Shown one piece after another: positions 1 through 22,400 of a DNA stretch of 25,157 nucleotides (the first letter of the stretch is position 1; the number at the start of each line of letters is the position of its first letter). Origin of the DNA: a virus. The notes below the pieces were generated by a model, which was not told where the DNA came from, ran no database searches, and saw only the letters and a program-made list of their open reading frames with translations. The position numbers were made by a program, and so were the translations under genes. Where the stretch lies: the IMG/VR virus record IMGVR_UViG_3300010354_000587, positions 1 to 25,157 of that record; one strand, given 5' to 3'.

Positions 1-35
1 CCAGTAAAACCACGGACAGATCTAACAGCATTCAT
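1..35 (-). CDS. Partial small gene, 5' end only
   Basis: Only the first 11 codons are in the window (MNAVRSVRGFT), reading leftward off the edge. The ATG at 33-35 is preceded by AAGGTGG at a normal distance and by a two-box promoter at 97-123. A GAGC-GAAA-GCTC hairpin with a GNRA loop lies just upstream of the ribosome binding site. Too little is present to assign a function. Confidence 0.6.
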   Translation of the reverse strand, partial: MNAVRSVRGFT

Positions 36-96
36 AAGAACCACCTTTCTGAGCTTTCGCTCTACCAGTTAAAAAAAACAACAGCTTACATATTTA

Positions 97-123
97 TATT
101 CGTATAGACACACTTTTTATTTA
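97..123 (-). promoter_or_regulatory. Two-box phage promoter P1
   Basis: TAAATA-N15-CGAATA on the minus strand, followed by TATAAATATG. It lies between the stop of the 115-codon gene and the partial gene at the window edge. Confidence 0.75.
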
Positions 124-124
124 A

Positions 125-472
125 TTAATTATCTCCATAATTATCGCCCCATGTTACATAACCATCATCCTTAAGCATCTTGAATACTTCAGCGTAATGA
201 TAGTTGTGCCAATTAAAGCCCATATCTCCACAAGCTTCGATATATTCTTGATAAAATTCAGTCATGTCTATATGATCATAAACTGAATCGTAGATAGTAC
301 CCTTCAGAGACTCATTATCTTCATCAATTTTACGAAGTTTCTCTAAGCCATACTTTCTTTCAAGTCTCTGCCCAAAGTGGACAGCAAGGGCTTCTAAATC
401 GCCTTCTTGGCATGGTTCATAAGGCGTTGTCCTAACTTCTGGTAGACTACCTAGCTTATCTGGACTTTTCAT
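125..472 (-). CDS. Hypothetical acidic phage protein, 115 aa
   Basis: Unrecognised. A longer reading begins at 496, but AAGGAG sits inside that extension five bases before the ATG at 472, so 472 is the better start. The protein then begins MKSPDKLGSL and is 115 residues long. It is rich in Asp, Glu, Tyr and Trp, with no signal peptide or membrane segment. Its first 17 bases overlap the end of the 88-codon gene upstream, so the two are probably translationally coupled and co-transcribed from P2. The C-terminal part (residues about 85-115, FNWHNYHYAEVFKMLKDDGY) looks like a small folded helix-turn unit, but no family is identified. Confidence 0.8.
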   Translation of the reverse strand: MKSPDKLGSLPEVRTTPYEPCQEGDLEALAVHFGQRLERKYGLEKLRKIDEDNESLKGTIYDSVYDHIDMTEFYQEYIEACGDMGFNWHNYHYAEVFKMLKDDGYVTWGDNYGDN

Positions 473-722
473 TTTTCTCTCCTTGAATTGGTTCACCGTT
501 CACAATATTGGCCAAACCCATTATTTCTGGCCTATCTTTCACATTATCATACCTGTTTTCAAATTCTTCATCTAAATCCCTAAGTTGTTCATAAGGTACA
601 TAACCATCACCCCTTAGAACCCTACAAACAAATTCGTAATCACCGTTTTTAACTCCGCTCAGAATATCAATGATATCCTCTGCCATCAAGATGCTAACCT
701 TTTCTTCTCTACTAAACTTCAT
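456..722 (-). CDS. Hypothetical protein, 88 aa
   Basis: Unrecognised small soluble protein. The ATG at 722 has AAGGAG eight bases upstream, directly after promoter P2. The N-terminal half (MKFSREEKVSILMAEDIIDI) is predicted helical and the C-terminal tail is charged. The phrase VLRGDGYVPYEQL resembles MLKDDGYVTW in the next gene down, which hints that the two neighbours may be distantly related, but this is only a short similarity. First gene of a two-gene operon. Confidence 0.8.
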   Translation of the reverse strand: MKFSREEKVSILMAEDIIDILSGVKNGDYEFVCRVLRGDGYVPYEQLRDLDEEFENRYDNVKDRPEIMGLANIVNGEPIQGEKNEKSR

Positions 723-745
723 ATGTCACTCTCCTTGTATATACT

Positions 746-772
746 TATTCGTTTCACACACCAAAAGATTTA
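746..772 (-). promoter_or_regulatory. Two-box phage promoter P2
   Basis: Upstream box TAAATC (the only copy departing from TAAATA), N15, then CGAATA and AGTATATA, then AAGGAG of the 88-codon gene. Confidence 0.7.
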
Positions 773-773
773 C

Positions 774-1034
774 TTAATTTGTAAAAATAAATAAGGCATT
801 ATCACCCATCCAACTACCGATCATATCCCCTTCCCATTTGAGTTCTTTTGCGAAAACCCTAGCTGCATTAGCAAAATTTTCTTGGTACTCTAGCTCGTAA
901 TCCCAAGGGATTATCTTCGATGGATTTCTTACAGTACCATTGCCTAATCTGGCTTTAAGGCGTTTGCCTTTAGTATCTGTAATAGGTAGAACCTTCACAA
1001 AAATAGTCGCACCGCCCACAAATTTTATTCTCAT
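774..1034 (-). CDS. Hypothetical protein, 86 aa
   Basis: Unrecognised. An ATG at 1076 would make a 100-residue product, but its first 14 codons are read out of the promoter P3 sequence. The ATG at 1034 has AAGGAG eight bases upstream and is the start given here. The protein starts MRIKFVGGATIFVKVLPI, a probable beta strand pair, followed by a basic loop (KGKRLKARLGNG) and an amphipathic segment. Small and soluble, with no cysteine. Single-gene unit between P3 and P2. Confidence 0.8.
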   Translation of the reverse strand: MRIKFVGGATIFVKVLPITDTKGKRLKARLGNGTVRNPSKIIPWDYELEYQENFANAARVFAKELKWEGDMIGSWMGDNALFIFTN

Positions 1035-1057
1035 GTCACAAACTCCTTGTATATATC

Positions 1058-1084
1058 TATTCGTTCCACACACCATTTTATTTA
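1058..1084 (-). promoter_or_regulatory. Two-box phage promoter P3
   Basis: TAAATA-N15-CGAATA. The TAA of the upstream box is also the stop codon of the 45-codon gene at 1082-1219, showing how tightly promoters are fitted to gene ends. Confidence 0.75.
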
Positions 1085-1219
1085 CTTAAATCCAAACTTT
1101 TCTTTTAACTTTTTATAGAGTAAGTCATACTCTTCTTGCCCCATATCACTTTTCATAAACTTCTTGTCTAATCTATCTACTTCTCTCTCAAATTGTATTT
1201 CCTTATCTTGTTCGCTCAT
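1082..1219 (-). CDS. Hypothetical charged mini-protein, 45 aa
   Basis: A small gene with ATG at 1219, AAAGGG upstream and TAA at 1082-1084. It begins MSEQDKEIQFEREVDRLDKK and ends KKLKEKFGFK. It is almost entirely charged and probably one or two helices. Driven by P4, whose promoter is the end of module A. Unrecognised. Support is the ribosome binding site, the close fit between P4 and P3, and protein-like composition. Confidence 0.72.
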   Translation of the reverse strand: MSEQDKEIQFEREVDRLDKKFMKSDMGQEEYDLLYKKLKEKFGFK

Positions 1220-1259
1220 CTTATTCCCTTTCTTAGTATTTGTTTTCCTTACATAGTTA

Positions 1260-1286
1260 TATTCGTTTGAACACGATTTTTATTTA
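1260..1286 (-). promoter_or_regulatory. Two-box phage promoter P4
   Basis: CTAAATAAAAA, spacer, CGAATATAACTATG. It drives the 45-codon gene. An AT-rich block with AAAAATATTTTTATA lies immediately upstream, also seen before P8 and P12. Confidence 0.75.
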
Positions 1287-1441
1287 GTAAAATATAAAAA
1301 TATTTTTAGTATTACCAAGTATTACAAAAAAGCTATGTGCGTTCCGCATCCCCGATCCCTTACCCGATTTCAGCAAGGCGGGTTGTTTTATATCGGCCCT
1401 CCCGATTATTCAAGTTTTATTTTTCACCTCCTATGTATATA
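1287..1441 (-). ncRNA. Gene-less folded RNA unit of module A
   Basis: The segment downstream of P5 and upstream of P4 has no convincing open frame. On the minus strand it starts with AGGAGGTGA (1425-1432 plus flank) but no ATG follows. Then comes the hairpin ATCGG-GAGGG-CCGAT (1392-1406), then the core AACCCGCC...GGGGATGCGGAACG (1340-1384), which recurs in module C, and then a TTTTTT run near 1325-1330. The same order of motifs near the equivalent promoters in B and C suggests a small RNA rather than a leader. Alternatives: a 5' leader for the next gene, or a very short peptide (TTG start, 16 codons). Confidence 0.5.
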
Positions 1442-1468
1442 TATTCGTTTGAGAGCATAAATTATTTA
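1442..1468 (-). promoter_or_regulatory. Two-box phage promoter P5 (ATT subtype)
   Basis: TAAATAATT, N15 overall, CGAATATATATACATAGGAGG. One of four copies with ATT rather than AAA after the upstream box; all four sit directly after the GGATA hairpin. Confidence 0.75.
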
Positions 1469-1498
1469 GTAAAATTTTAAATTTTTTTTGAATAAGAT

Positions 1499-1520
1499 AA
1501 TTGGATAAAGATATCCAATT
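1499..1520 (-). terminator. GGATA/TATCC hairpin of module A
   Basis: Nine-base-pair stem (AATTGGATA/TATCCAATT) with a four-base loop. On the minus strand it is followed by ATCTTATT, which resembles an intrinsic terminator for transcripts arriving from the right. Conserved in modules B, C and D. On the plus strand it could equally start a folded RNA. Confidence 0.45.
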
Positions 1521-1530
1521 TAATTTTGAT

Positions 1531-1613
1531 GGTATGGGAAAGACGCTTGCTGTACAGGCATATCATCAGGAAACTCGCATGGTCTAGATAAGACCAAGCG
1601 ATTTTGTTTTTTT
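1531..1613. ncRNA. Folded body of module A
   Basis: CGCTTG (1544-1549) pairs with CAAGCG (1595-1600) and encloses a GGTCT-AGATA-AGACC hairpin (1581-1595). On the plus strand a T-run follows directly (1602-1613), as in an intrinsic terminator. Module B shares CGCTTGCT, AGGCATA, TCAGGAA and the closing CCAAGC, with compensated changes in the hairpin. The coding strand of the RNA is unresolved. No known RNA family is recognised. Confidence 0.45.
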
Positions 1614-1619
1614 AAAAAG

Positions 1620-1656
1620 ATTTTACTTGACAGATTTTTAGTCCGTCAAGTATAAT
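1620..1656. promoter_or_regulatory. Palindromic sigma70-type promoter pair
   Basis: On the plus strand TTGACA (1627-1632), an 18-base spacer and TATAAT (1651-1656). On the minus strand the same palindrome gives TTGACG, 18 bases and TAAAAT (1625-1620). The inverted repeat ACTTGAC/GTCAAGT (1625-1631, 1645-1651) makes the boxes symmetric. Followed on the minus strand by TCTTTTT, the hairpin could instead be a terminator for the 63-codon gene. Confidence 0.5.
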
Positions 1657-1766
1657 GTTTAGCAGGAGAAGATTAGCCTATCTAAAAACCTATTCTATCT
1701 CCGAACAAGCTAAAAACTATCTCCATCTGCAAGATTTCTGTACTTGAGCAGAGAAAATTAAATAAA
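1657..1766. other. Gene-less stretch after palindromic promoter
   Basis: No open frame with a credible start. On the plus strand it would be the 5' part of a transcript from TATAAT at 1651. It can fold (GGAGA...TCTCC; CTGCAAG...CTTGAGCAG). It may be an antisense or small RNA, or just the 3' untranslated end of the leftward gene at 1767-1958. Confidence 0.3.
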
Positions 1767-1958
1767 CTATACATTGTCAGCTTCCTCCAAAGTAAAATAC
1801 TCTTGTTCATTTTTAAGACTCACATTAAGTCTTTGGAATTTAAACCATACATTTTTAATATCTTCTTCTGTTGCCTTAGTATGCGTTTTATGTACCGATA
1901 AGACTACCAAGGCAGTAGAAATAATATCTAATTCATTTTTATTCAATTCTATATTCAT
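1767..1958 (-). CDS. Hypothetical protein, 63 aa
   Basis: Unrecognised. The ATG at 1958 has AGAGG nine bases upstream, and the start lies two bases after the stop of the 51-codon gene, so the two form an operon from P6. It begins MNIELNKNELDIISTALVVL and is predicted to be two or three helices with an acidic end (YFTLEEADNV). The pattern 'ELDIISTALVVLSVHKTHTKATEEDIKNVWFKFQRL' resembles small phage helical proteins of unknown role. Confidence 0.75.
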   Translation of the reverse strand: MNIELNKNELDIISTALVVLSVHKTHTKATEEDIKNVWFKFQRLNVSLKNEQEYFTLEEADNV

Positions 1959-1960
1959 GA

Positions 1961-2116
1961 TTAAACCTCTAATTCTTTTTTCAAAGATAGTTTTTGTCCT
2001 TGTCTACCACCCTTGGGAGACTTCTTTTTGGTTTTGAAAACAACCATACCCCTTGGTGTTTCACCCCTACGCTCAAAAGGCATATTTACCAGCGTGAATC
2101 TAATTGTCCTACTCAT
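1961..2116 (-). CDS. Hypothetical basic protein, 51 aa
   Basis: ATG at 2116 with AAGGAG eight bases upstream; TAA at 1961-1963. The product starts MSRTIRFTLVNMPFERRGET and is strongly basic in its second half (FKTKKKSPKGGRQGQKLSLKK), which would suit nucleic-acid binding, though that is inference. First gene after P6 and directly upstream of the 63-codon gene. No family is recognised. Confidence 0.75.
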   Translation of the reverse strand: MSRTIRFTLVNMPFERRGETPRGMVVFKTKKKSPKGGRQGQKLSLKKELEV

Positions 2117-2156
2117 CTTACTACTCCTTGTTAAAGAAATTAACCTTACATATACA

Positions 2157-2183
2157 TATTCGTTTCAAGTTAGATTTTATTTA
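2157..2183 (-). promoter_or_regulatory. Two-box phage promoter P6
   Basis: CCTAAATAAAA, spacer, CGAATATGTATATG. Drives the 51- and 63-codon genes. Confidence 0.75.
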
Positions 2184-2209
2184 GGAAAAATCTAGAAAAA
2201 CCTATTTTA

Positions 2210-2554
2210 TTAATCACGATCATATCTACTTGGTTTATACATAGCATTGCCATTCTCATGAATGAAATCATCAATGCTTAACGCCTCTTCATTGTCTACT
2301 TCTCTCTGCTCCAACATCTGGTGCAGGGCTTGACAACCGTCTAAGATTCTGCAATGCAGATACTCAGGATACTTACCATCTACCGTTTGTATCCAACCAT
2401 GATCAAATTCTTCCTCAAAGCTATTGACTACAAAGGTATTTGACCTTGGGTTATAGTCAACGCCTATTAGATAGGCATGGCCATTGTTTAAGACTTCTGG
2501 CATGTGTTTCATAAACTCGGCATATTCGTTACATTCTAAAATCAAATCGCTCAT
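2210..2554 (-). CDS. Hypothetical protein, 114 aa
   Basis: Unrecognised soluble acidic protein. The ATG at 2554 has GAAGGGAA upstream. It starts MSDLILECNEYAEFMKHMPE, with a likely alpha/beta fold in the first 80 residues (NGHAYLIGVDYNPRSNTFVV, then HGWIQTVDGKYPEYLHCRI), a central helix with two Cys, and a disordered acidic tail. It follows the 46-codon acidic gene with 24 bases between, so both are probably read from P7. No catalytic motif is seen. Confidence 0.8.
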   Translation of the reverse strand: MSDLILECNEYAEFMKHMPEVLNNGHAYLIGVDYNPRSNTFVVNSFEEEFDHGWIQTVDGKYPEYLHCRILDGCQALHQMLEQREVDNEEALSIDDFIHENGNAMYKPSRYDRD

Positions 2555-2578
2555 ATCTAATTCCCTTCAAGTTATAGG

Positions 2579-2719
2579 TTACTCATCCTCTCCACACATA
2601 TCATCTGGCCAATCATAGTCTTGCTCAGTATCGTCTTCGATGTATTCTCTCTCATCGTAGTTGCCATCAAGACCATCCTCAAAAGATTCAAATTCCCACT
2701 CATCGTTAGTCCAGTCCAT
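2579..2719 (-). CDS. Very acidic mini-protein, 46 aa
   Basis: ATG at 2719 with AAGGAG seven bases upstream; TAA at 2579-2581. The sequence (MDWTNDEWEFESFEDGLDGN...) is about 40 percent Asp and Glu with three Trp. Such small acidic phage proteins sometimes act as DNA mimics or host-protein inhibitors, but nothing here proves that. Its leader (AAGGAGATGGAAAATGGA) is nearly identical to that of the gene at 2774-2992, suggesting a copied promoter-leader segment. Confidence 0.7.
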   Translation of the reverse strand: MDWTNDEWEFESFEDGLDGNYDEREYIEDDTEQDYDWPDDMCGEDE

Positions 2720-2749
2720 TTTCCATCTCCTTGGTTATTGTTACTTACT

Positions 2750-2776
2750 TATTCGTACAACTATGATTTTTATTTA
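2750..2776 (-). promoter_or_regulatory. Two-box phage promoter P7
   Basis: CTAAATAAAAA, spacer, CGAATAAGTAAG. The TAA of the box is the stop codon of the 72-codon gene. Drives the 46- and 114-codon genes. Confidence 0.75.
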
Positions 2777-2992
2777 GCTAACTTTTCGAGCAAATAAACT
2801 TTTCTCATCTCCGTTATTCGCCCAATCAGTTAAAACCCCTAAAGCCCCAATCGAATCTAAGGCACTTCGAAGATGACCAAAATAAATCTTAGCATCCTCA
2901 GTTCTTTGCCAATCCTCTGCTAGATAAGTATCAGCAAGATTAGCTTGCTTAACCAATGCCATCAAAGTATTTACTGTTGTTTCATAATCCAT
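2774..2992 (-). CDS. Hypothetical protein, 72 aa
   Basis: Unrecognised. ATG at 2992 with AAAGGAG and a seven-base gap. It begins MDYETTVNTLMALVKQANLA and appears fully helical (DTYLAEDWQRTEDAKIYFGH, then LRSALDSIGALGVLTDWA). It is the first gene after module B, read from P8. Its leader duplicates that of the 46-codon gene. Confidence 0.78.
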   Translation of the reverse strand: MDYETTVNTLMALVKQANLADTYLAEDWQRTEDAKIYFGHLRSALDSIGALGVLTDWANNGDEKSLFARKVS

Positions 2993-3040
2993 TTTTCCAT
3001 CTCCTTTGTTTTAGTTATCGTTACTGCTTCCGTACTATTC

Positions 3041-3067
3041 TATTCGTATAAGTAGGCTTTTTATTTA
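3041..3067 (-). promoter_or_regulatory. Two-box phage promoter P8
   Basis: TTAAATAAAAA, spacer, CGAATAGAATAG. Preceded by the AT-rich block AAAATATTTTTATATTCTA shared with modules A and C. Drives the 72-codon gene. Confidence 0.75.
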
Positions 3068-3232
3068 ATAGAATATAAAAATATTTTAGTAAAATTTTAT
3101 TATACCAAATTAAATCAGTCCAGGCTCCCCCCATCCCACCTGAGTATTCCCCCAGATGGCAAGCTTATTTTTTATCGGCCCTTCCCGATTTTTCCAGATT
3201 TTTTAAGTATCCACCTCCTTTCTATATAGTTA
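3068..3232 (-). ncRNA. Gene-less folded RNA unit of module B
   Basis: Starts after P9 with AAAGGAGGTG (3212-3219 plus flank), again without a usable start codon. The hairpin ATCGG-GAAGGG-CCGAT follows (3174-3189); relative to module A the loop has one added base while the stem is intact, which would shift any reading frame. The downstream part (CCATCTG...CAGGTGG, CAGG...CCTG) folds but differs in sequence from A and C. No protein-coding frame is convincing. Confidence 0.48.
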
Positions 3233-3259
3233 TATTCGTTTGAGGTAGCAAATTATTTA
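3233..3259 (-). promoter_or_regulatory. Two-box phage promoter P9 (ATT subtype)
   Basis: CTAAATAATT, spacer, CGAATATAACTATATAG, then AAAGGAGG. Sits directly after the GGATA hairpin of module B. Confidence 0.75.
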
Positions 3260-3291
3260 GCAAAAAAAATAAATTTTTTTAAAAAAGATAA

Positions 3292-3309
3292 TTGGATAAA
3301 GATATCCTA
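3292..3309 (-). terminator. GGATA/TATCC hairpin of module B
   Basis: TTGGATA/TATCCTA with loop AAGA (plus strand). On the minus strand it is followed by ATTATCTTTTTT, consistent with a terminator for transcripts from P10. Confidence 0.45.
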
Positions 3310-3326
3310 TTTTCGAAGCTTGTTAT

Positions 3327-3403
3327 ATTAGGTAATACCGCTTGCTAGTCAGGCATACTCTCAGGAACCTCGGTGGTGTCCATAGGACACACCAAGCTTT
3401 TTT
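3327..3403. ncRNA. Folded body of module B
   Basis: Contains ATTAGGTAATACCG (shared with module D), CGCTTGCT, CAGGCATA, TCAGGAA (shared with A) and the hairpin GTGTCC-ATA-GGACAC (3377-3391). GCTTG and CAAGC close the fold, and a T-run follows on the plus strand. Hairpin bases differ from A but still pair. Confidence 0.45.
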
Positions 3404-3509
3404 AAAACTACTTTTTTCGATTTTAGGTATCTCACCTAGGTTTGCCCCTAAAAGTAGTAAACATTACCATTCATTTTAATCTAGATCATACTTCCCCCTT
3501 ATATACTTA
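3404..3509 (-). other. Gene-less stretch downstream of P10
   Basis: Contains the long imperfect inverted repeat CTACTTTT/AAAAGTAG (about 3407-3462) with inner pairings AGGT/ACCT and TTTTAGG/CCTAAAA, so the RNA should fold. The only translated element suggested is ATG-ATC-TAG at 3481-3489 after AAGGGGG. No normal gene is seen. Confidence 0.4.
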
Positions 3510-3536
3510 TATTCGTTCGACCTATATATTTATTTA
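3510..3536 (-). promoter_or_regulatory. Two-box phage promoter P10
   Basis: CTAAATAAATA, spacer, CGAATATAAGTATATAAGGGGG. The unit it starts has no normal gene, only a folded segment and the body of module B. Confidence 0.72.
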
Positions 3537-3537
3537 G

Positions 3538-3723
3538 TTATTTTTGATCAATTGCTAACCATATTTCATTTTTATGATAAGTATTAAGGCATTGCCTAAG
3601 TGTATCTATATTTGGCATATCGGCAAGATTATCAATCACATTACTATTTCTTACCGAAAAGAAATAATACAACAATACTTTTTCCCCATTAATCTCAATA
3701 GTTTTTCCCCTTGCAAATCTCAT
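3538..3723 (-). CDS. Hypothetical protein, 61 aa
   Basis: Unrecognised. ATG at 3723 with AAGGGG upstream, 14 bases after the stop of the Gp88-like gene, so it is the second gene of the P11 operon. The product (MRFARGKTIEINGEKVLLYY...) looks like a small beta sheet followed by a helix (NIDTLRQCLNTYHKNEIWLA). The operon position suggests, without proof, a partner role to the Gp88-like protein. Confidence 0.75.
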   Translation of the reverse strand: MRFARGKTIEINGEKVLLYYFFSVRNSNVIDNLADMPNIDTLRQCLNTYHKNEIWLAIDQK

Positions 3724-3737
3724 GATTTTTCCCCTTA

Positions 3738-4427
3738 TTAATGATATATGTAAGCTACATTGTTAACATTTTTATCCCAACATTTACGGCATTCATTGCA
3801 ATTAACCTTGCTTGCACCATTAAAAGCTTCCAAGCTTGCTGGACAAATATTTTCGTGCCTATCATCAGCATTTACTGGTGTTGATACTACTGTTGAAGTA
3901 GGTAATCCTAGTGCTTTACTTGGCAATTGATCAACCTTGAACATACTTGGACGAACACAAAGATTATCGGCAAATTCTCCATATATAGCTTGAAATTCCA
4001 TAATCATGCCCAATTCTTTGGTTGGAAGCCAAAATTTAACTTCTGGCAATGATTTTGCAATTTCATTTATTGCGACTAAGTGTTCAAGAGATTGAATATC
4101 TCCGCTAGTATGCCAGCGAAAATATCCTTTGCCTACCTTATCACGCAAAGATTTATACTTTGCTCTTAGTTGTACTGTAAAATTTTCTTGCCATACTTTT
4201 AAATCTTCCAATTGTGAAAACCTTGCAGTATTCGCATTTTTTACATTGCCAAAGATATACCTACCATTCAAGGCATAGCAACCATGGCAAACAGTACCTT
4301 CAATCTTTGCAAGCTTAGATCCAGTCTTACAATTCCACGCTGGAGTATCCCAACTAAGCCATGGCATTTTTTCCGTTTGAGAAAATTTAATTTCAATATT
4401 TTCTACAGTATTCAATTCAATTCTCAT
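3738..4427 (-). CDS. Gp88-family phage protein, cysteine-rich
   Basis: At 229 residues this is the largest leftward gene. It has the hallmarks of the phage Gp88 domain: NCKTGSKLA near residue 32, a CHGCYALNGRY motif at 47-57, an FRWHTSGDIQSLEH block at 103-116, and FWLPTKE at 132-138. Cysteines at 33, 47, 50, 157, 195, 210, 213 and 216, with a CNECRKC cluster at the C-terminus, suggest metal or iron-sulfur binding; this is inference from spacing. The family is widespread in phages and its biochemical role is not established to my knowledge. ATG at 4427 has AAGGAAT upstream and P11 follows. The C-terminal cysteines are compact here, so truncation is unlikely. Confidence 0.82.
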   Translation of the reverse strand: MRIELNTVENIEIKFSQTEKMPWLSWDTPAWNCKTGSKLAKIEGTVCHGCYALNGRYIFGNVKNANTARFSQLEDLKVWQENFTVQLRAKYKSLRDKVGKGYFRWHTSGDIQSLEHLVAINEIAKSLPEVKFWLPTKELGMIMEFQAIYGEFADNLCVRPSMFKVDQLPSKALGLPTSTVVSTPVNADDRHENICPASLEAFNGASKVNCNECRKCWDKNVNNVAYIYH

Positions 4428-4463
4428 CTTATTATTCCTTATACAAAGTTATCTATATAGTTA

Positions 4464-4490
4464 TATTCGTTTGACTATCAATTTTATTTA
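4464..4490 (-). promoter_or_regulatory. Two-box phage promoter P11
   Basis: CTAAATAAAAT, spacer, CGAATATAACTATATAG. Drives the Gp88-like and 61-codon genes; its TAA ends the 35-codon gene. Confidence 0.75.
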
Positions 4491-4595
4491 GATATTCCAT
4501 TGCTCAATTTGTTTGGCAATTGTTGGGATTAAAATATCCCAATTAGGTTCAAAATCATTATCATCGATTACAATCTCAAAATTTTCATCATCCAT
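4488..4595 (-). CDS. Acidic mini-protein, 35 aa
   Basis: ATG at 4595 with AGGGAG upstream, and a stop that coincides with the first box of P11. The product starts MDDENFEIVIDDNDFEPNWD and is acidic, with two Trp. A perfect seven-base inverted repeat TTGGGAT/ATCCCAA (4523-4542) lies inside the coding sequence. First gene after module C, from P12. Unrecognised; support is the start signal and the fit between P12 and P11. Confidence 0.65.
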   Translation of the reverse strand: MDDENFEIVIDDNDFEPNWDILIPTIAKQIEQWNI

Positions 4596-4643
4596 TTTTT
4601 ACTCTCCCTTTTTACTAGTGTTAAGTTATCCCTTACATACTTA

Positions 4644-4670
4644 TATTCGTTTGACTAAGCTTTTTATTTA
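4644..4670 (-). promoter_or_regulatory. Two-box phage promoter P12
   Basis: TTAAATAAAAA, spacer, CGAATATAAGTATG, then AAGGG. Drives the 35-codon gene; preceded by the module-end AT-rich block. Confidence 0.75.
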
Positions 4671-4808
4671 ATAGAATATAAAATTATTTTAAAAATATTT
4701 TTGTTATACTAAGTTATATCCATAAAGATATAGCCGTTCCGCATCCCCTATTCCATACGCTATTGCATGGCGGGTTTTAGCATTACCCTCAAGCTTCTTA
4801 TATAGTTA
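4671..4808 (-). ncRNA. Gene-less folded RNA unit of module C
   Basis: Downstream of P13. It carries the core AACCCGCC...GGGGATGCGGAACG (4735-4776), shared with module A at 1340-1384. In both, CCGC and GCGG can pair around a variable middle. A hairpin TATATC/GATATA (about 4716-4733) follows and then the AT-rich block before P12. The strong GGAGGTG site of A and B is absent. Only tiny frames occur (for example ATG-CTA, seven codons). Confidence 0.48.
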
Positions 4809-4835
4809 TATTCGTTTTAGAGGGTGAATTATTTA
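4809..4835 (-). promoter_or_regulatory. Two-box phage promoter P13 (ATT subtype)
   Basis: CTAAATAATT, spacer, CGAATATAACTATATAAG. Directly follows the GGATA hairpin of module C; the unit it starts has no gene. Confidence 0.75.
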
Positions 4836-4866
4836 GTAAAAAAATAAATTTTTTTTAAAAAGATAA

Positions 4867-4884
4867 TTGGATAAAGATATCCGA
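4867..4884 (-). terminator. GGATA/TATCC hairpin of module C
   Basis: TTGGATA/TATCCGA with loop AAGA; one G-T pair replaces A-T relative to A and D. On the minus strand ATTATCTTTTT follows. Confidence 0.45.
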
Positions 4885-4887
4885 TTT

Positions 4888-4967
4888 TGGCGGGGTTATA
4901 ATGGGTAATACAAAGTAATACCCCGCAAGCCCACCAGTCTAGGTAAGACAGGCAGGTCTTTTTTTTT
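4888..4967. ncRNA. Folded body of module C
   Basis: GCGGGGT (4890-4896) pairs with ACCCCGC (4920-4926) around a repeated GGTAATAC/GTAATACC. It is followed by a GTCT-AGGTA-AGAC hairpin and a nine-T run on the plus strand (4959-4967). Sequence differs from bodies A and B, but the hairpin position and T-run are kept. Confidence 0.42.
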
Positions 4968-4970
4968 GTT

Positions 4971-5026
4971 GGCCTATCGGCCCGGCCCGCTCTTTTGAGC
5001 GAGCCATTGAGGGGCTTTCGCCCCCT
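4971..5026 (-). ncRNA. Double-hairpin element of module C
   Basis: On the minus strand: GGGGC-GAAA-GCCCC hairpin, CAATGGCT, CGCTC-AAAA-GAGCG hairpin, then GGGCCGATAGGCC, which can itself fold (GGCC-GATA-GGCC). Module D (6514-6572) has the same order with different stem bases. The GNRA loop favours the minus strand as the RNA strand. It starts directly at the stop codon of the 27-codon gene. Confidence 0.5.
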
Positions 5027-5109
5027 TACCTATCGTATACCCAATCAACTAGGGTATACATTAGTGAAACATAAGCCGATAAAAAGAACAATAGAATTAA
5101 ATCCATCAT
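5026..5109 (-). CDS. Single-span membrane mini-protein, 27 aa
   Basis: The ATG at 5109 overlaps the TGA of the 65-codon gene (ATGA), and GGAGGG lies about nine bases upstream. The second ATG at 5106 is an alternative start. The product MMDLILLFFLSAYVSLMYTL plus VDWVYDR is one hydrophobic helix with a charged end, as in many phage membrane mini-proteins. No partner gene such as an endolysin is nearby, so a holin role is not claimed. An eight-base inverted repeat GTATACCC/GGGTATAC lies inside it (5035-5059). Confidence 0.62.
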   Translation of the reverse strand: MMDLILLFFLSAYVSLMYTLVDWVYDR

Positions 5110-5303
5110 GATCTTGCCCTCCTTGATTGTAATTCTTTCCGATATACCGATATTTGATCGGCATACTTTCCATATGTATCTATTCCATTAGCTATGCATT
5201 CTTGGCAATCGGCAATACTTGCCACCAATCCCGCAATACTCATATTCCTCGCTCTTTTTTCTTCTACTGACCAATTGCACACAAAAGGATTATAATTGTT
5301 CAT
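5106..5303 (-). CDS. Hypothetical protein, 65 aa
   Basis: Unrecognised. ATG at 5303 with GGAG eight bases upstream, driven by P14. It starts MNNYNPFVCNWSVEEKRARN; the middle (MSIAGLVASIADCQECIANG) is a helix with a CxxC pair, and the end is basic (YRKELQSRRARS). Coupled by a four-base overlap to the 27-codon membrane protein. Confidence 0.75.
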   Translation of the reverse strand: MNNYNPFVCNWSVEEKRARNMSIAGLVASIADCQECIANGIDTYGKYADQISVYRKELQSRRARS

Positions 5304-5341
5304 TTCTACATCTCCATGTAAGTTATTGTTATCTATATATA

Positions 5342-5368
5342 TATTCGTTTGACAACTGTTTTTATTTA
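5342..5368 (-). promoter_or_regulatory. Two-box phage promoter P14
   Basis: CTAAATAAAAA, spacer, CGAATATATATATAG. Drives the 65- and 27-codon genes and then the elements of module C. Confidence 0.75.
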
Positions 5369-5390
5369 GTAAAAAACAGAAAAAACTTTT

Positions 5391-5576
5391 TTATTCTTTG
5401 ATTACTCCATACATTCTTGAATTATCATCATCGTCATCATCATCATCATCGTCATCTGGATCAATTGTAATGGTCATTCTAGTTTTATCAATATGATCAA
5501 ACCATTCCTTATTTAACATAAATTCATCGTATGACAATGGCACTCTCGCCCACGGATTTACTACTATAGCTATCAT
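5391..5576 (-). CDS. Hypothetical protein with 11-Asp run, 61 aa
   Basis: ATG at 5576 with AAGGAAAG upstream. Residues about 41-51 are eleven consecutive Asp, coded by a GAT/GAC triplet tract, so the run may change length by slippage without breaking frame. N-terminal part MIAIVVNPWARVPLSYDEFM looks folded; the tract divides it from a short tail (NSRMYGVIKE). The Asp run could bind divalent metal or a basic surface; this is inference. Single-gene unit from P15. Confidence 0.75.
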   Translation of the reverse strand: MIAIVVNPWARVPLSYDEFMLNKEWFDHIDKTRMTITIDPDDDDDDDDDDDNSRMYGVIKE

Positions 5577-5613
5577 AACTTTCCTTGTGTTAGTGTTACA
5601 TTACCTATATATC

Positions 5614-5640
5614 TATTCGTTTTAAAGTAGTTTTTATTTA
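5614..5640 (-). promoter_or_regulatory. Two-box phage promoter P15
   Basis: CCTAAATAAAAA, spacer, CGAATAGATATATAGG. Drives the 61-codon Asp-rich gene. Confidence 0.75.
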
Positions 5641-5669
5641 GGAAAAAACTATAAAAACCTTTTTAATTT

Positions 5670-5927
5670 TTAGTCGTGTATAATCCCTTCTGCTATAAAC
5701 TTAAGACTATACGCCGATACCTTTTTCTCTTCATGATGGTTACCTTCTTGATAACTTACCAAGATATACCAACCATTCTTAGACTTTGACAAACTTTCTA
5801 TTGTTCCAAACCTAAAACCATCGACCTTTGAATCTGGTCTAAGATATCTATTAATTGATATCTTCTTGCCAATATTAGAACCAAACAATTCCGCTCTTGC
5901 AGGAAACCCATCTTGAATCTTAATCAT
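5670..5927 (-). CDS. Hypothetical SH3-like beta protein, 85 aa
   Basis: ATG at 5927 with AAAGGG upstream; single-gene unit from P16. The sequence (FGSNIGKKISINRY, FRFGTIESLSKSKNGWYILV, SYQEGNHHEEKKVSAYSLKF) alternates short strands and turns, as in small SH3-like barrels. No family is identified. Lack of cysteine and of a signal peptide suggests a cytoplasmic role. Confidence 0.75.
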   Translation of the reverse strand: MIKIQDGFPARAELFGSNIGKKISINRYLRPDSKVDGFRFGTIESLSKSKNGWYILVSYQEGNHHEEKKVSAYSLKFIAEGIIHD

Positions 5928-5993
5928 ATCAAATCCCTTTTCAAAAAATTGGTAGTACTTAATTAGGCGACTACCTTAACCTATCTGTATATA

Positions 5994-6020
5994 TATTCGT
6001 TTGAAGGTAGTTTTTATTTA
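5994..6020 (-). promoter_or_regulatory. Two-box phage promoter P16
   Basis: CCTAAATAAAAA, spacer, CGAATATATATACAG. Drives the 85-codon gene. Its upstream flank GTTTTTTCCTAAATAAAAAC matches P15 closely. Confidence 0.75.
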
Positions 6021-6046
6021 GGAAAAAACTAAAAAAACCTTTTTAT

Positions 6047-6271
6047 TTAATCATCCAACAATACCCATTCTGAATTACATTCTACTTCCTCTTCCAATTT
6101 CTTCCTATCTTCCCACCGTTGAATTGTTTGGATCAAAAATACCGCTTCCACTTCACTATCTACTTGAGCCACGAAAAAACTCTCAGTAATCTCAGGAATT
6201 TCCCCATGATATACAATTTCTTGCTCAACTACCGAAAATTTACCATTACTGTTTTTAGAATATGCTAACAT
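6047..6271 (-). CDS. Hypothetical acidic protein, 74 aa
   Basis: Unrecognised. ATG at 6271 with AGAGGGG upstream. MLAYSKNSNGKFSVVEQEIV then an alpha/beta pattern and an acidic end (EEEVECNSEWVLLDD). It is the first gene after partial module D, and its leader from P17 is longer (about 60 bases) than those of other units. Confidence 0.75.
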   Translation of the reverse strand: MLAYSKNSNGKFSVVEQEIVYHGEIPEITESFFVAQVDSEVEAVFLIQTIQRWEDRKKLEEEVECNSEWVLLDD

Positions 6272-6329
6272 CTTTTTAACCCCTCTTGTTTGTTGTTAGG
6301 TATAGCTTATTGCTTCCCTTATACTTATA

Positions 6330-6356
6330 TATTCGTTTTAACGGTCTAATTATTTA
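6330..6356 (-). promoter_or_regulatory. Two-box phage promoter P17 (ATT subtype)
   Basis: CTAAATAATT, spacer, CGAATATATAAGTATAAGGG. Unlike P5, P9 and P13 it leads straight to a gene (74 codons). Confidence 0.75.
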
Positions 6357-6385
6357 GATAAAAAAATAAATTTTTTTAAAAAGAT

Positions 6386-6407
6386 AATTGGATAAACATA
6401 TCCAATT
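6386..6407 (-). terminator. GGATA/TATCC hairpin of module D
   Basis: AATTGGATA/TATCCAATT with loop AACA on the plus strand. On the minus strand ATCTTTTT follows. It would end transcripts from the sigma-like gene before P17. Confidence 0.45.
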
Positions 6408-6420
6408 TTTATTTGGTTAG

Positions 6421-6507
6421 ATTAGGTAATACCGACTATTGGGCCTAGGGGTATATACATACCTTCCCTAAGCCCGTTGGTCTTGATAAGACAAACAAGT
6501 ATTTTTT
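6421..6507. ncRNA. Folded body of module D
   Basis: ATTAGGTAATACCG as in module B, then a long stem GGGC-TAGGG/CCCTA-GCCC (6441-6475) with inner GGTAT/ATACC, then GTCTT-GAT-AAGAC (6480-6492) and a T-rich run on the plus strand. Confidence 0.42.
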
Positions 6508-6513
6508 ATTTTT

Positions 6514-6572
6514 GGCCTATCGGCCCGGCTTACCATCTTTCGATGGCAAGCCATTGTAGGGCCTACGGCCCG
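6514..6572 (-). ncRNA. Double-hairpin element of module D
   Basis: On the minus strand: GGGCC-GTA-GGCCC starting about two bases after the sigma-like stop codon, then ACAATGGC, then a CCATC-GAAA-GATGG hairpin extended by GCTT/AAGC, then GCCGGGCCGATAGGCC. Same architecture as 4971-5026 with changed but paired stem bases. Confidence 0.5.
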
Positions 6573-6573
6573 C

Positions 6574-7047
6574 CTATTCAGCGAGGGATTCTTGGATCTC
6601 AGACCATATCTGAGATATACGGCCGTTAGATAAACCAAGCTGTTGGGCTATTTCTTGGTTTTCGTACCGATGACTTTTTAGTACTATGATATCATGCTCG
6701 ACTTGATTTATATACCCAAGGTCGAAAAGTTCCTTGGCATTACTTGCCACTTGTTCAACCAAATCCTCGGACTTATCGATCATATCGATATCTTCGTTAG
6801 CATTAATGCTAACATTATTCTTTCTAACATTGTCATAATCTAACCTATCTTTAACCTTATTGTTAAAGATCTTCCAACAAAAATTATCAAATTTAACCCC
6901 TCTTGATGGGTCGAAGGTTACTGATGCATCTCCAATAGCGTCTTGAACCAAATCTTCAACATTACGATATTTGGTACGATTCTTAGAAATCATCTTTTTA
7001 GCCAAGAGGTTAACATCCACACCAAAAACCAAGCTTGCATTATTCAT
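6574..7047 (-). CDS. Phage sigma-like factor (leftward)
   Basis: A 157-residue protein with the layout of a compact sigma factor. Residues about 28-72 (NVEDLVQDAIGDASVTFDPS, then VKFDNFCWKIFNNKVKDRL) match the region 2 pattern for core binding and the -10 element. Residues about 116-152 (EHDIIVLKSHRYENQEIAQQ, then LGLSNGRISQIWSEI) are a region 4 type helix-turn-helix. Regions 1 and 3 are missing. It is read from a consensus host sigma70 promoter rather than the two-box motif, which suits an early regulator. AAAGGGATTTT precedes the ATG at 7047. It could instead be a DNA-binding regulator that only resembles a sigma factor. Confidence 0.75.
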   Translation of the reverse strand: MNNASLVFGVDVNLLAKKMISKNRTKYRNVEDLVQDAIGDASVTFDPSRGVKFDNFCWKIFNNKVKDRLDYDNVRKNNVSINANEDIDMIDKSEDLVEQVASNAKELFDLGYINQVEHDIIVLKSHRYENQEIAQQLGLSNGRISQIWSEIQESLAE

Positions 7048-7070: not shown

Positions 7071-7116
7071 AAGTTATTAGGATTTTTAGAAGTTAAAAAT
7101 CGATTACCAATAACTT
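7071..7116 (-). promoter_or_regulatory. Nested hairpin in the sigma-like gene leader
   Basis: In the 5' leader AAGTTATT pairs with AATAACTT (7071-7078, 7109-7116), and inside it GATTTTTA pairs with TAAAAATC (7081-7088, 7094-7101). Both stems are eight perfect pairs. Could control stability or translation; it ends about 24 bases before the ATG. Confidence 0.5.
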
Positions 7117-7124
7117 ATATAATC

Positions 7125-7153
7125 ATATTATCGTCTTTTATTTTTATTGTCAA
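7125..7153 (-). promoter_or_regulatory. Consensus sigma70 promoter of sigma-like gene
   Basis: TTGACA (7153-7148), exactly 17 bases, TAATAT (7130-7125) on the minus strand. Start of transcription expected near 7118, about 70 bases before the ATG at 7047. Confidence 0.8.
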
Positions 7154-7599
7154 TACTATTTTTAAAAAAAACATGAAATATTTTTAAAATAATTTTTATA
7201 CTAAGTTATACCTATTTTTAAAAATAATGTTTACTATGTTTATAAACATTAAAATTCTTAAAAATGAGAAAATCGATTTTAAGCGATATTTTTGTTTTTT
7301 TGGGTATTACTCCAACCAATAAGATAATCGAAAATAAAGCTATTTTTAGAGCTTTAAATGCCATGCCATTATGACATATTGAGACTTGCGGAGTAGTAAA
7401 TATAACTAGGTTATACCTGTCAAAATGGCATTTTCAATTTTTTTTTAAAAATTTTTAGAAAAAAAAGAGCATGACAAAATGACATATTGCGTATGACAAA
7501 AAGGCAGGGGTTTTTTCAAATCGACTGCCAATCTGGCAGACTGCCAAAATGGCGGCCGGGGTTCCCACTCAACAAGCCCAACTTTCCCCAATGTACTAC
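7154..7599. other. Divergent control region without genes
   Basis: A 446-base stretch with no supported gene. Its left half is very AT-rich, with an inverted repeat AATGTTTA/TAAACATT (7226-7250) and ATAACTTAGTATAA near 7200 on the minus strand, which also occurs in module C. Its right half holds the phased dyad array and ends GC-rich. It could be a replication origin, an operator region, or both. Confidence 0.6.
7364..7554. repeat. Phased TGNCA-N3-TGNCA dyad array
   Basis: Six 13-base sites: 7364-7376, 7418-7430, 7472-7484, 7494-7506, 7526-7538 and 7542-7554. The best palindrome is TGCCA-ATC-TGGCA at 7526. Four sites start exactly 54 bases apart (7364, 7418, 7472, 7526). ATGACATATTG recurs at 7371 and 7479. 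This looks like a binding array for a dimeric protein, in an operator or origin iteron arrangement. Confidence 0.7.
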
Positions 7600-7770
7600 C
7601 TATTCCTTCCTAGTACGGCCTTTATTCTTCTTGATGCGTTGAATAGTTTCAATGGGGTATTCGACACGAAAGAGCCTCAGTAGGGCATCTCTAATTTCTT
7701 TGTCGCTAATGATATTGTGATTGTCATATATGAATTGAATGATATAATCTGGCAAAGGAGTATTTCTCAT
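7600..7770 (-). CDS. Possible small HTH protein, 56 aa
   Basis: Open frame from ATG 7770 (or 7794, 64 residues) to 7600. The sequence YIIQFIYDNHNIISDKEIRD followed by RVEYPIETIQRIKKNKGRTR reads like a resolvase- or transposase-type helix-turn-helix with a basic tail, so it could bind the nearby dyads. Against it: no clear ribosome binding site before either start, and a sigma70-type promoter plus the start of the rightward 53-codon gene lie across its 5' end. Real only if transcribed leftward from inside the rightward genes. Confidence 0.4.
   Translation of the reverse strand: MRNTPLPDYIIQFIYDNHNIISDKEIRDALLRLFRVEYPIETIQRIKKNKGRTRKE
7721..7748 (+). promoter_or_regulatory. Possible sigma70 promoter of rightward arm
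   Basis: TTGTCA (7721-7726), 16 bases, TATAAT (7743-7748). The expected transcription start near 7755 falls in or just before AAAGGAG (7754-7760), so the leader would be very short. That weakens the call. Confidence 0.45.
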
Positions 7771-7930
7771 GACTAAAAACAATCCGATTGACATTGAATC
7801 TCAGATCAAGGTGGTGGCAGCCGAGGGCGTATTACCAGAGCTAGACCTGTTGGCCCCTAGTCCTCCATTGGACCAAGCTTTGGCAAGTATAGAAGATAAT
7901 ATTGTTGAAGACAAAAAGAAAGATGAATAA
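7769..7930 (+). CDS. Hypothetical acidic protein, 53 aa
   Basis: ATG at 7769 with AAAGGAG eight bases upstream; TAA at 7928-7930. It starts MTKNNPIDIESQIKVVAAEG and has a Pro-rich middle (APSPPLD) and a charged tail (EDNIVEDKKKDE). Unrecognised. Its stop overlaps the start of the second sigma-like gene (ATGAATAA), so it opens the rightward operon. It might be an accessory to that factor; this is position-based inference. Confidence 0.7.
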   Translation: MTKNNPIDIESQIKVVAAEGVLPELDLLAPSPPLDQALASIEDNIVEDKKKDE

Positions 7931-8516
7931 ATATCCACATGGATTAAAAGAGCGAGATGTGATGTTGGCACTCGATAGAGCGATCAACCTTCTTGCCCCA
8001 ACCTTTGCGTTTGGCTATTATGATGTTGATGATATTAGACAAGAGGCATATATATTTGGCCTTGAGGCTTTGTCACGATATGACCCATCTCGCCCACTAG
8101 AAAACTTTTTATATACACACATAAAGAATAGACTTATTAATTTTAAGAGAGACAAATATCATAGAACAGATCCACCGTGTAAAATTTGCCACAATGTTGG
8201 AAAGTGTACAAACGGTGATTTTTGTGATAAGTATAAGGCATGGAGAAAGAGAAATAATTCAAAGCAAAATTTAATGCGACCTTTGGATATCCATACAGTT
8301 TCAGATGACAATGAAAAAAACATACATGAGAAACAATGCGTTGTAGACGATGCCAGCATATCTGAATGTTCAAATTTAATTGACCTACATTTACCAGTTG
8401 AACTTAGGTCTATATATTTAAGAATGAAGTCTGGCGAGTCTGTGCCAAAAATAAAAAAGAAAAAAGTCGAGCAAGCAATCAAGGAGATATTAGATGGCAG
8501 GAAAAAGGCTGAATAA
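7923..8516 (+). CDS. Phage sigma-like factor with Cys cluster (rightward)
   Basis: The start is taken at ATG 7923; an upstream TTG at 7902 is possible but has no better signal. The 197-residue protein has a clear sigma region 2: VDDIRQEAYIFGLEALSRYD at about 35-54 and LENFLYTHIKNRLINFKRDK at about 59-78. A Cys cluster follows (C86, C89, C95, C101; CKICHNVGKC), likely a zinc knuckle. The C-terminus (LRSIYLRMKSGESVPKIKKK) may be a degenerate region 4. Phage late sigma factors such as T4 gp55 also keep mainly region 2, so a late-transcription role is plausible. It overlaps both neighbours and lies directly upstream of the packaging genes. Confidence 0.75.
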   Translation: MNKYPHGLKERDVMLALDRAINLLAPTFAFGYYDVDDIRQEAYIFGLEALSRYDPSRPLENFLYTHIKNRLINFKRDKYHRTDPPCKICHNVGKCTNGDFCDKYKAWRKRNNSKQNLMRPLDIHTVSDDNEKNIHEKQCVVDDASISECSNLIDLHLPVELRSIYLRMKSGESVPKIKKKKVEQAIKEILDGRKKAE

Positions 8517-19402: not shown

Positions 19403-22400
19403 ATGCACTTCCAAAGAAACATAACAAGAATACAAGATCAAGATGACTTTTCTGGAATACCAAATTCTGGAGAAGTTATTGCTTTTGATGGACAAAATTT
19501 TGTTCCGTCAGGTATTACTGGTTATCAAGGAAACCAAGGACACCAAGGTGAACAAGGTTATATAGGTGTTCAAGGACATCAAGGACAAGAAGGAGAACAA
19601 GGAAATCAAGGACTTCAAGGTAGTCAAGGCAACCAAGGAAATCAAGGATTTCAAGGCAACCAAGGATTACAAGGTAATCAAGGTAATCAGGGAAATAAAG
19701 GAGAACAAGGTTTTCAAGGAAATCAAGGTCAACAGGGATTGCAAGGCAGTCAGGGATTTCAAGGAACTGCTGGAATAAATGGGTCTCAAGGAAATCAAGG
19801 ATTTCAAGGAATAGCTGGAATAAATGGAGCACAAGGAAGTCAAGGTTTTCAAGGAAATGATGGTCATTATTCAGAGTTCATAGGAACTTTTGATAATGAG
19901 ACACATCTTTTAACAACTCATCCAAATGGTCCACCACAAATATATCAATGGGCATTTGCACCAGATGATGCAAATCCATTAATTTTATGGGTTTATAGAT
20001 ATGATCCAAATTCTGTAAATTATTGGGCAAAAGAAGATATTTCTTTAACTTCTGGCCCTCAAGGTAACCAAGGGTCACAAGGTGATCAAGGATCACAAGG
20101 CAATCAAGGCGAACAGGGATTCCAAGGTAATCAAGGCGACCAAGGTAACCAAGGGTTTCAAGGTGAACAAGGTTCACAGGGGTTCCAAGGTGATCAAGGA
20201 AACCAAGGTGATCAAGGGAATCAAGGTGATCAAGGATTCCAAGGTGATCAAGGTAACCAAGGTGACCAAGGGAATCAAGGTGACCAAGGAAACCAAGGTA
20301 ACCAAGGTGATCAAGGTAACCAAGGTGACCAAGGGAATCAAGGTGACCAAGGAAACCAAGGTAACCAAGGTGATCAAGGGAATCAAGGTGATCAAGGATT
20401 CCAAGGTGACCAAGGTGATCAAGGTGATCAAGGGAATCAAGGGGAACAAGGTTCTCAGGGTGATCAAGGATTCCAAGGTGATCAAGGTAACCAAGGTGAC
20501 CAAGGCAACCAAGGGGAACAAGGTTTTCAAGGCGAACAAGGTTCGCAGGGTGATCAAGGATTCCAAGGTGACCAAGGCAACCAAGGCAACCAAGGATTTC
20601 AAGGTGACCAAGGTAACCAAGGTAACCAAGGGTTTCAAGGCAATCAAGGATCACAGGGTTATCAAGGCAATCAAGGATCAGATGCATTATGGAATTTTAG
20701 AGGTGCTTATAGTGGCGGTGCATCATATGCTGTAGGTGATATAGCAACTTATTTAGGGCAAACTTGGTATCGCATTCATTCTAATGGTGGCAATGTTGGG
20801 GATACCCCATCAGAAGGAACTTTTTGGACATTGATTGCCGAAAAAGGGCAACAAGGTTTTCAAGGTTATCAAGGATCACAAGGTAATCAAGGAAATCAAG
20901 GTAATCAAGGATTTCAAGGAAACCAAGGTTTTCAAGGAAATCAAGGTGATGCTGGATCTGGAGTAACAATTCAAGGATCTGAATCTTGGGAAAATATATT
21001 CAATAATGAAACTTTTAGTGCTGTTCTTGGAGATATGTGGATATTAACATCTACCGCACAAGGAACAGCATCACAATCATGCCCTAATCCTTCTAATGGT
21101 TCTGCTGCTGCTGGAGATGGTGTTGTATATACTGGGAATTCTCCAACTTACTGGCAAAATGTTGGTCCTATTCGTGGACCACAAGGAAATGTTGGTTCTC
21201 AAGGTAATCAAGGTATTCAAGGAAACCAAGGTTTTCAAGGATTTCAAGGAAATCAGGGATCACAAGGTAATCAAGGGATTCAAGGAAATCAAGGTTTTCA
21301 AGGTTATCAAGGAGATCAAGGTTTTCAAGGTAACCAAGGGCTTCAAGGTAATCAAGGTTATCAAGGAAATCAAGGCAATACTGGAATTAGTAGTGGTTTA
21401 GTTTTATTTTTAGATACTGCTGGTGGTGCATATCCACAGACAGGAGAGTTGCTGACTTCTCCAGACACAGGTACTCAAACCACAATTACAACTGGTAGAT
21501 TAAATGTTGCCAATAATTATCTAGTAGGAACATTTACTACTCCAGCCAATTCTCTAACATCTACAGTCATAGTTGGTGGCATATGGTTGTTAAAACAGAT
21601 TGCTAGTTGCACAACAACTAGTCAATTACCAACCATGCATTATGGTATTTATAGTGTTGATGCAGATGGTGTAAGCAATGAAATTTTGATTGCTGCTGGA
21701 AACTCAACAACTGCTACCTTTATTCCGGTTTCTCAATCCAGCATCGACATACAAGTTAGTGTTCCAGATACAATATTGATTGATTTAACAAAAAGAATAA
21801 GAATAAAAATTTATGTAAACATAAAACAAAATAATTCTACTGTTACTTTAGAATACAGAGACCAAACTCAGTCAGTTCTTATTACAACGCTTGTTGCTAA
21901 TCCAGCAACTGGGCCACAAGGATATCAAGGCAACCAAGGACTCCAAGGCAATCAAGGATTACAAGGTAACCAAGGATTCCAAGGTGACCAAGGAAACCAA
22001 GGTAACCAAGGAAACCAAGGAAACCAAGGGAATCAAGGTGATCAAGGATTCCAAGGTGAACAAGGCAACCAAGGCAACCAAGGTGAACAAGGCAACCAAG
22101 GGTTCCAAGGTTATCAAGGTGACCAAGGGAACCAAGGTGACCAAGGGAACCAAGGTGATCAAGGGAACCAAGGTGATCAAGGCAACCAAGGTGACCAAGG
22201 GAACCAAGGGTTACAAGGCGATCAAGGTGACCAAGGCTACCAAGGGTTCCAAGGTTATCAAGGTGACCAAGGCAACCAAGGTGACCAAGGTGACCAAGGG
22301 AACCAAGGGTTCCAAGGCGATCAAGGATTACAAGGCGATCAAGGTGATCAAGGCTACCAAGGGTTCCAAGGCGATCAAGGTGATCAAGGCAACCAAGGGT

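Follow-up and report, generated by a model that had tools for sequence, protein, structure and literature searches.

Promoters of the sigma-28 type have a TAAA...CGA shape, and phages such as SPO1 and those of the phiEco32/7-11 type run regulons under sigma factors that they encode themselves. The promoter stem-loop (PeSL) cassettes of T4-type phages have reportedly been described by Arbiol et al. in 2010 and Comeau et al. in 2014. These PeSL papers are cited in PMC4503421, phage-encoded sigma factor regulons appear in PMC8948821, and HK022 put RNA suppresses termination via the zinc-binding domain of the RNA polymerase beta' subunit (PMC9378689).

We analyzed a 25,157-base IMG/VR virus record (IMGVR_UViG_3300010354_000587, the window), an incomplete genome of a freshwater phage group, using sequence comparison and computation throughout. 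The right part of the window carries terminase, portal, and head genes, and positions 1 to 7047 form a block of small leftward genes in which four repeated modules, A to D, are embedded. These combine promoters of a single family with a folded body (Y), a GGATA/TATCC dyad and, in A to C, a gene-less unit (X). On balance they are probably composite transcription cassettes of a phage regulon that also includes a sigma factor, operators, and X as a promoter-proximal RNA. Two aspects appear to have escaped the initial annotation of this DNA: the promoters track the phage sigma factor, and the bodies terminate transcription in the other direction.

No close match to the window DNA was found among 50,697 phage records, nor did searches of the phage collection with the sigma protein and portal give a match. 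A search with the sigma protein retrieved no relatives, and related contigs (given L numbers below) were found via the terminase and via a GP88-type gene. The only matches of the window terminase itself are to phages of Bacillus, Staphylococcus, Microcystis, and the like, with 25 to 29% identity. One related record of 141.8 kb has the same promoter sequence at both ends and is therefore probably near a whole genome.

Module anatomy and promoter family

For modules A, B, and C, the initial annotation correctly placed the body first, then the dyad, the ATT promoter, the gene-less unit, the AT block, and the AAA promoter. It was also right about the half-length of module D, which has no gene-less unit and joins the sigma-like gene 6574-7047. 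The operators, RNAs, and terminators listed here are predictions.

1260-1620: module A, full order
1260-1287, minus strand: second promoter of A, consensus match
1309-1325, no strand: operator W1 of A, direct repeat GTATTACCAAGTATTAC, 22 bp upstream of the second promoter
1329-1419, minus strand: X RNA of A, covariance model R1, 80.7 bits
1442-1469, minus strand: first promoter of A, consensus match
1496-1516, no strand: GGATA/TATCC dyad of A (operator W2), pattern match
1512-1614, plus strand: Y element of A with terminator (hairpin, T-run)
3041-3405: module B, full order
3041-3068, minus strand: second promoter of B, consensus match
3106-3201, minus strand: X RNA of B, covariance model R1, 91.2 bits
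3233-3260, minus strand: first promoter of B, consensus match
3287-3307, no strand: GGATA/TATCC dyad of B (operator W2), pattern match
3308-3403, plus strand: Y element of B with terminator (hairpin, T-run)
4644-4967: module C, full order
4644-4671, minus strand: second promoter of C, AAAA type, consensus match
4724-4808, minus strand: X RNA of C, covariance model R1, 59.9 bits
4809-4836, minus strand: first promoter of C, consensus match
4862-4882, no strand: GGATA/TATCC dyad of C (operator W2), pattern match
4867-4967, plus strand: Y element of C with terminator, T9, including GTAATACAAAGTAATAC
6330-6507: module D, body, dyad, and promoter, adjoining the sigma-like gene
6330-6357, minus strand: promoter of D, CTAAATAATT type, consensus match
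6383-6403, no strand: GGATA/TATCC dyad of D (operator W2), pattern match
6410-6507, plus strand: Y element of D, hairpin and T-run, terminator on the plus strand

The promoter sequence YTAAATAA-N14-CGAATA has 15 exact copies in the window, all on the minus strand between positions 97 and 6357 (0.00 expected from 100 shuffles). In related larger records the promoters are clustered and strongly biased to one strand (e.g., 25:1, 18:0, 24:0, and 14:0), with zero matches to a reversed control pattern. One clade of relatives has TGAATAA in place of TAAATAA in the -35 box, and more distant relatives have TAAATA-N15-CGAATA, with a G preceding CGAATA. What had been taken for ATT and AAA promoter types is variation in the first spacer bases within one family and not two promoter classes.

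X is a structured RNA linked to promoters

In modules A, B, and C, X sits between two promoters. Folded alone, the units are unremarkable against shuffles (z of -0.3 to -1.7); comparison nonetheless revealed a real covarying stem, P2, in which three pairs show double changes. The X covariation score of 0.558 exceeds that of shuffled alignments (0.246), was reached in 0 of 500 shuffles, and lies above every slid version. Between L027 and L032, whose cassettes are nearly identical, a P2 pair has gone from A-U to G-C, a double change that is compensatory. A covariance model matched most contigs of the group that cover the region, with several copies per genome. The expectation of further cassette copies with compensatory changes in gene-free gaps was borne out in related phages. 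Because P2 cells contain 21 G-U against 3 A-C pairs, the X RNA would run in the promoter direction.

Linkage of X to promoters is tight. Of 32 X places examined, 31 have their first base in the span from 10 bases inside a promoter end to 36 bases past it, and the remaining one follows a promoter with one changed -10 base. The 141.8-kb record has one inverted X, directly after the sole promoter found on that strand. X patterns are restricted to contigs of this phage group, bar four chance-like matches in unrelated bacterial records, and a search of Rfam with the window gave no match above the gathering threshold, X and Y included. By these comparisons X is a new structured RNA family, confined to the phage group as searched, and it is probably transcribed. 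We also propose by hand a P1 hairpin whose loop possibly pairs with ACCC or CUU before P2, a candidate pseudoknot. X was considered as a coding sequence and dropped, as its copies share no reading frame and their indels are not in threes.

The strongest competing explanation, possible but clearly less probable than the one we favor, is that X is a trans-acting small RNA with its own promoter, targeting host or phage messengers or a host protein, and that the second promoter serves the gene alone. The geometry accords with this, with a model length of 84 to 96 nucleotides (nt) and a second promoter lying 24 to 53 nt past the end of X, as does the presence of several copies that have diverged in sequence while retaining P2. 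However, no terminator separates X from the gene that follows, and X is always at the 5' end of the predicted transcript, as expected of a cis element. Our guess, by analogy, is that X is a cis-acting promoter-proximal RNA that works like HK022 put or as a stabilizer.

In the leader of gene 5670-5927 (5925-5982, minus strand), the DUF2815 RNA model RF03084 gives a sub-threshold match of 30.5 bits against a gathering threshold of 41.2.

Folded bodies as opposing terminators

The bodies, which the initial annotation had described as folded, fold better than shuffled sequences on the plus strand in A, C, and D (z of -4.4, -3.0, and -4.0) and weakly so in B (z of -1.7). In 18 of the 24 distinct copies of Y, a run of 6 to 9 T comes after the last hairpin (GTCTTnnnAAGAC or relatives) on the strand that does not carry the promoters; a T-run on the promoter strand was never seen. 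Because these T-runs oppose the promoters, Y appears to act as, or end in, a rightward terminator. The T-run asymmetry of the bodies, taken with the promoter direction and G-U asymmetry of X, indicates that the gene-less units are probably read from the strand opposite to that of the bodies.

Two other candidates for Y were rejected: a leftward RNA, ruled out by the T-run asymmetry, and a hammerhead ribozyme seen by eye in body A, whose core is not retained in B or L019. Module B contains another conserved fold at 3405-3470 (ACTACTTTT...AAAAGTAGT, with GGTATCTCACC inside); its arms vary in concert in L019, L023, and L027. Inside module A, positions 1627-1656 on the plus strand form a perfect sigma-70 promoter (TTGACA-N18-TATAAT), conserved in L010, L011, L019, and L026; it is followed at 1663-1790 by a conserved rightward segment whose two ATCTCC motifs might base-pair with Shine-Dalgarno sites.

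Exchangeable putative operators at a phased position

The pattern GATAATTGGATAAA[GC]ATATCC occurs exactly four times in the window (1496, 3287, 4862, and 6383; 0.00 expected), in agreement with the near identity of the GGATA/TATCC element across modules that had been reported. The exact pattern had no match in IMG/VR, a search that was too strict because relatives carry variants. At the dyad position, relatives instead have GTwwwAC-N3-GTwwwAC. Distances upstream of the promoter for 53 distinct GTwwwAC repeats cluster at 20 to 22 bp (19 repeats), 30 to 31 bp (11), and 69 to 71 bp (7), and such helical phasing fits a protein that contacts polymerase. Since this phased direct repeat occupies the same place in relatives, the GGATA dyad is more likely an alternative operator than the RNA hairpin originally proposed, though it may also have a weak leftward terminator role. 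The description of the modules as promoter-RNA composites holds, minus the dyad as an RNA part. L027 and L032 share their body and X yet differ in their operator blocks, and the block is therefore exchangeable; its predicted function is protein binding.

Signs of recombination at promoter blocks

Further members of the promoter family, including simple promoters with a stem-loop at a fixed offset around the -35 box, lie outside the modules.

97-124, minus strand: further promoter of the same family, consensus match
2157-2192, minus strand: simple promoter with stem-loop TAGATTTT/AAAATCTA
2750-2777, minus strand: further promoter whose -35 box gives the stop codon (2774-2776) of gene 2774-2992
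3510-3537, minus strand: further promoter, immediately following the gene 3538-3723 stop codon
4464-4491, minus strand: further promoter, which precedes the GP88-type gene 3738-4427
5342-5377, minus strand: simple promoter with stem-loop CTGTTTTT/AAAAACAG
5614-5649, minus strand: simple promoter with stem-loop TAGTTTTT/AAAAACTA
5994-6029, minus strand: simple promoter with stem-loop TAGTTTTT/AAAAACTA

The arms of these stem-loops change together, and stems of at least 8 occur at 18 of 149 promoters, against about 6.4 obtained by swapping. The -35 box (TAAATAA or TGAATAA) frequently supplies the stop codon of the upstream gene (2774-2776, 4489-4491, and in relatives). In L026 the D side is joined to the gene normally found behind module C, with the switch inside the promoter block, the junction at 5640-5940, and the intervening genes missing. 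The gene lying behind D in L027 and L032 ends in 21 residues that are 50 to 71% identical to the tail of the other clade's gene behind C; this shared tail adjoins a promoter that closes the reading frame with its -35 box. Movement of the whole gene ("i") between slots was considered and dropped, as only the tail is held in common.

The chimeric junction and the shared tail, together with the L027/L032 operator swap, uphold part of the cassette recombination that had been suggested; free mobility of the modules was not supported, since A to D keep orthologous positions in the relatives compared. We regard it as unlikely that the cassettes are true PeSL-type mobile elements with gene shuffling as their main role and regulation as secondary. 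Such a role would suit the chimeric junction, the exchanged blocks and tail, the changing stem-loop arms at the -35 box, and the provision of stop codons by that box, but module order and most gene order are conserved in relatives, and X and the operators have features superfluous for recombination.

A phage sigma factor as the probable reader

6574-7047, minus strand: gene for a sigma-70-family sigma factor with regions 2 and 4, which probably reads the promoter family
7125-7153, minus strand: candidate sigma-70-like promoter (TTGACA-N17-TAATAT) upstream of the sigma gene, consensus scan, 10/12

Sigma-70-like consensus sites in the region are not above chance in number. The 157-residue product of 6574-7047 matches the NCBIfam model TIGR02937 at 43.8 bits (cut-off, 42.9; E of 2e-11) and gives weak Pfam matches to region 2 and region 4, placing it in the sigma-70 family by the superfamily model and these two regions. 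The FliA_WhiG model matches in region 4 only and falls well below its cut-off (26.6 versus 189.6 bits), which leaves the protein outside that subfamily; the best matches of its own profile in the PDB are FliA (2.8e-4) and WhiG (3.5e-4).

The promoter -35 type requires two changes on the terminase tree (one change in 4% of bootstrap trees) and one on the sigma tree (98% of bootstrap trees). Among contigs with promoters in which the sigma gene was found, the recognition helix reads GSAHG or GSAFG in TGAATAA contigs and ISQ, VSQ, or ISK in TAAATAA contigs. The window is a telling case in this correlation: its terminase shares 90% identity with most of the TGAATAA clade, whereas its sigma factor shares 28 to 37% with most of that clade versus 44 to 45% with the TAAATAA clade, such that a terminase of one clade accompanies a sigma factor and promoters of the other type. 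Because the -35 variant follows the sigma tree and not the terminase tree, the 6574-7047 protein is probably the reader of YTAAATAA-N14-CGAATA promoters.

Another reader, either a host sigma-28 type factor or the 7902-8516 protein, with the 6574-7047 sigma serving otherwise, seems quite improbable. The promoters do resemble flagellar sigma-28 sites, and a second sigma-like gene is present; against this, the promoter variant tracks the 6574-7047 gene tree, and 7902-8516 matches region 2 only, whereas the promoters have a strict -35 box. That second sigma-like protein (7902-8516, plus strand) stands at the start of the rightward genes and could be a late factor without -35 contact. Lastly, chance repeats in AT-rich DNA plus ordinary terminators without further function are scarcely credible: the region is AT-rich and lone X folds are not significant, but promoters and dyads have 0.00 expected occurrences, X covaries, and the same places are conserved in many contigs.

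Elsewhere in the window, an AT-rich gap at 7080-7600 with TGACATATTG and TTGGCA/TGCCAA repeats is possibly a replication origin, and L081 has similar spaced TTGGCA repeats. Positions 19403-25009 on the plus strand encode a 1868-residue protein with collagen-like GxQG repeats, probably a tail or fiber protein.

A model for the cassettes and its weight

In the regulon that we favor, the 6574-7047 sigma factor would direct host RNA polymerase to approximately 15 to 25 leftward promoters before small genes. At the right end of a compound module, the Y terminator would stop rightward transcription. Next leftward would come an exchangeable operator, in helical phase with the promoter, for a DNA-binding regulator, and then the sigma-dependent promoter and roughly 85 to 130 nt of X at the transcript 5' end, followed by a second operator and second promoter for the next gene. 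As a best guess, X would act in cis on its own polymerase or transcript, perhaps as an antiterminator resembling put or by stabilizing the 5' end. The repeated promoter blocks would also be points of recombination, where slots trade gene ends and control sites with the overall order preserved.

Several points weigh against this model. Transcription is predicted from sequence throughout. The sigma-promoter link rests on few independent changes and is correlation, not proof, and a fold search with the sigma model gave weak matches only, mostly to sigma factors. The P1 and pseudoknot pairings in X were made manually, no clear terminator marks the 3' end of X, and RNAalifold gave no consensus fold for Y as aligned. 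The L026 chimera is one metagenome contig and possibly a misassembly.

If the model is true, a single factor of the virus could activate many small genes, with recombination reshuffling them. The lineage would be an instance in nature of a sigma factor whose recognition seems to have shifted in step with more than twenty promoters. It would also provide a new family of RNA associated with phage promoters and a promoter-centered route for exchange of small early genes outside T4-like phages, testable by sequence as genomes accrue. More speculatively, and with the odds against it, X could be the founding member of a novel cis-acting RNA class that marks phage-sigma transcripts, with W1 and W2 as a plug-in code setting the active genes, and sigma, promoters, RNA, and operators evolving as one module.

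Comparison with known systems

X resembles HK022 put (PMC9378689) in its length of approximately 70 to 100 nt, its position just downstream of a phage promoter (32 of 32 X places), its two stem-loops (P2 by covariation, P1 by hand only), and the lack of an evident dedicated protein. It differs in having no visible sequence relation, more copies, and a candidate pseudoknot, and antitermination by X is proposed by analogy.

As in phage sigma regulons, a sigma-70-family protein of the phage goes here with a promoter consensus and a gene class of its own. The promoters are, however, sigma-28 shaped and combined with X and operators, and at the level searched no phage of the collection has a relative. 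With FliA and WhiG (sigma-28) the protein shares the region 4 recognition helix and the TAAA...CGA promoter shape, but its short length holds regions 2 and 4 only.

The initial comparison with PeSL cassettes of T4-type phages is fair by analogy and breaks down at two defining features, phage type and the host sigma-70 promoter. Both systems consist of repeated promoter and stem-loop units in the intergenic space of small phage genes, and in both the units show signs of recombination; here the stem-loop lies around the -35 box at fixed offset and has changing arms. By terminase, however, the window phage is not a T4-type myovirus (its portal has no match), and in place of a host sigma-70 early promoter it has TAAATAA/TGAATAA-N-CGAATA, which tracks the phage sigma. 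Where PeSL cassettes shuffle genes, we see a single chimeric junction, swapped operator blocks, and a shared tail, yet conserved order. The window cassettes add a structured RNA, phased operators, and an opposing terminator, all at conserved positions.

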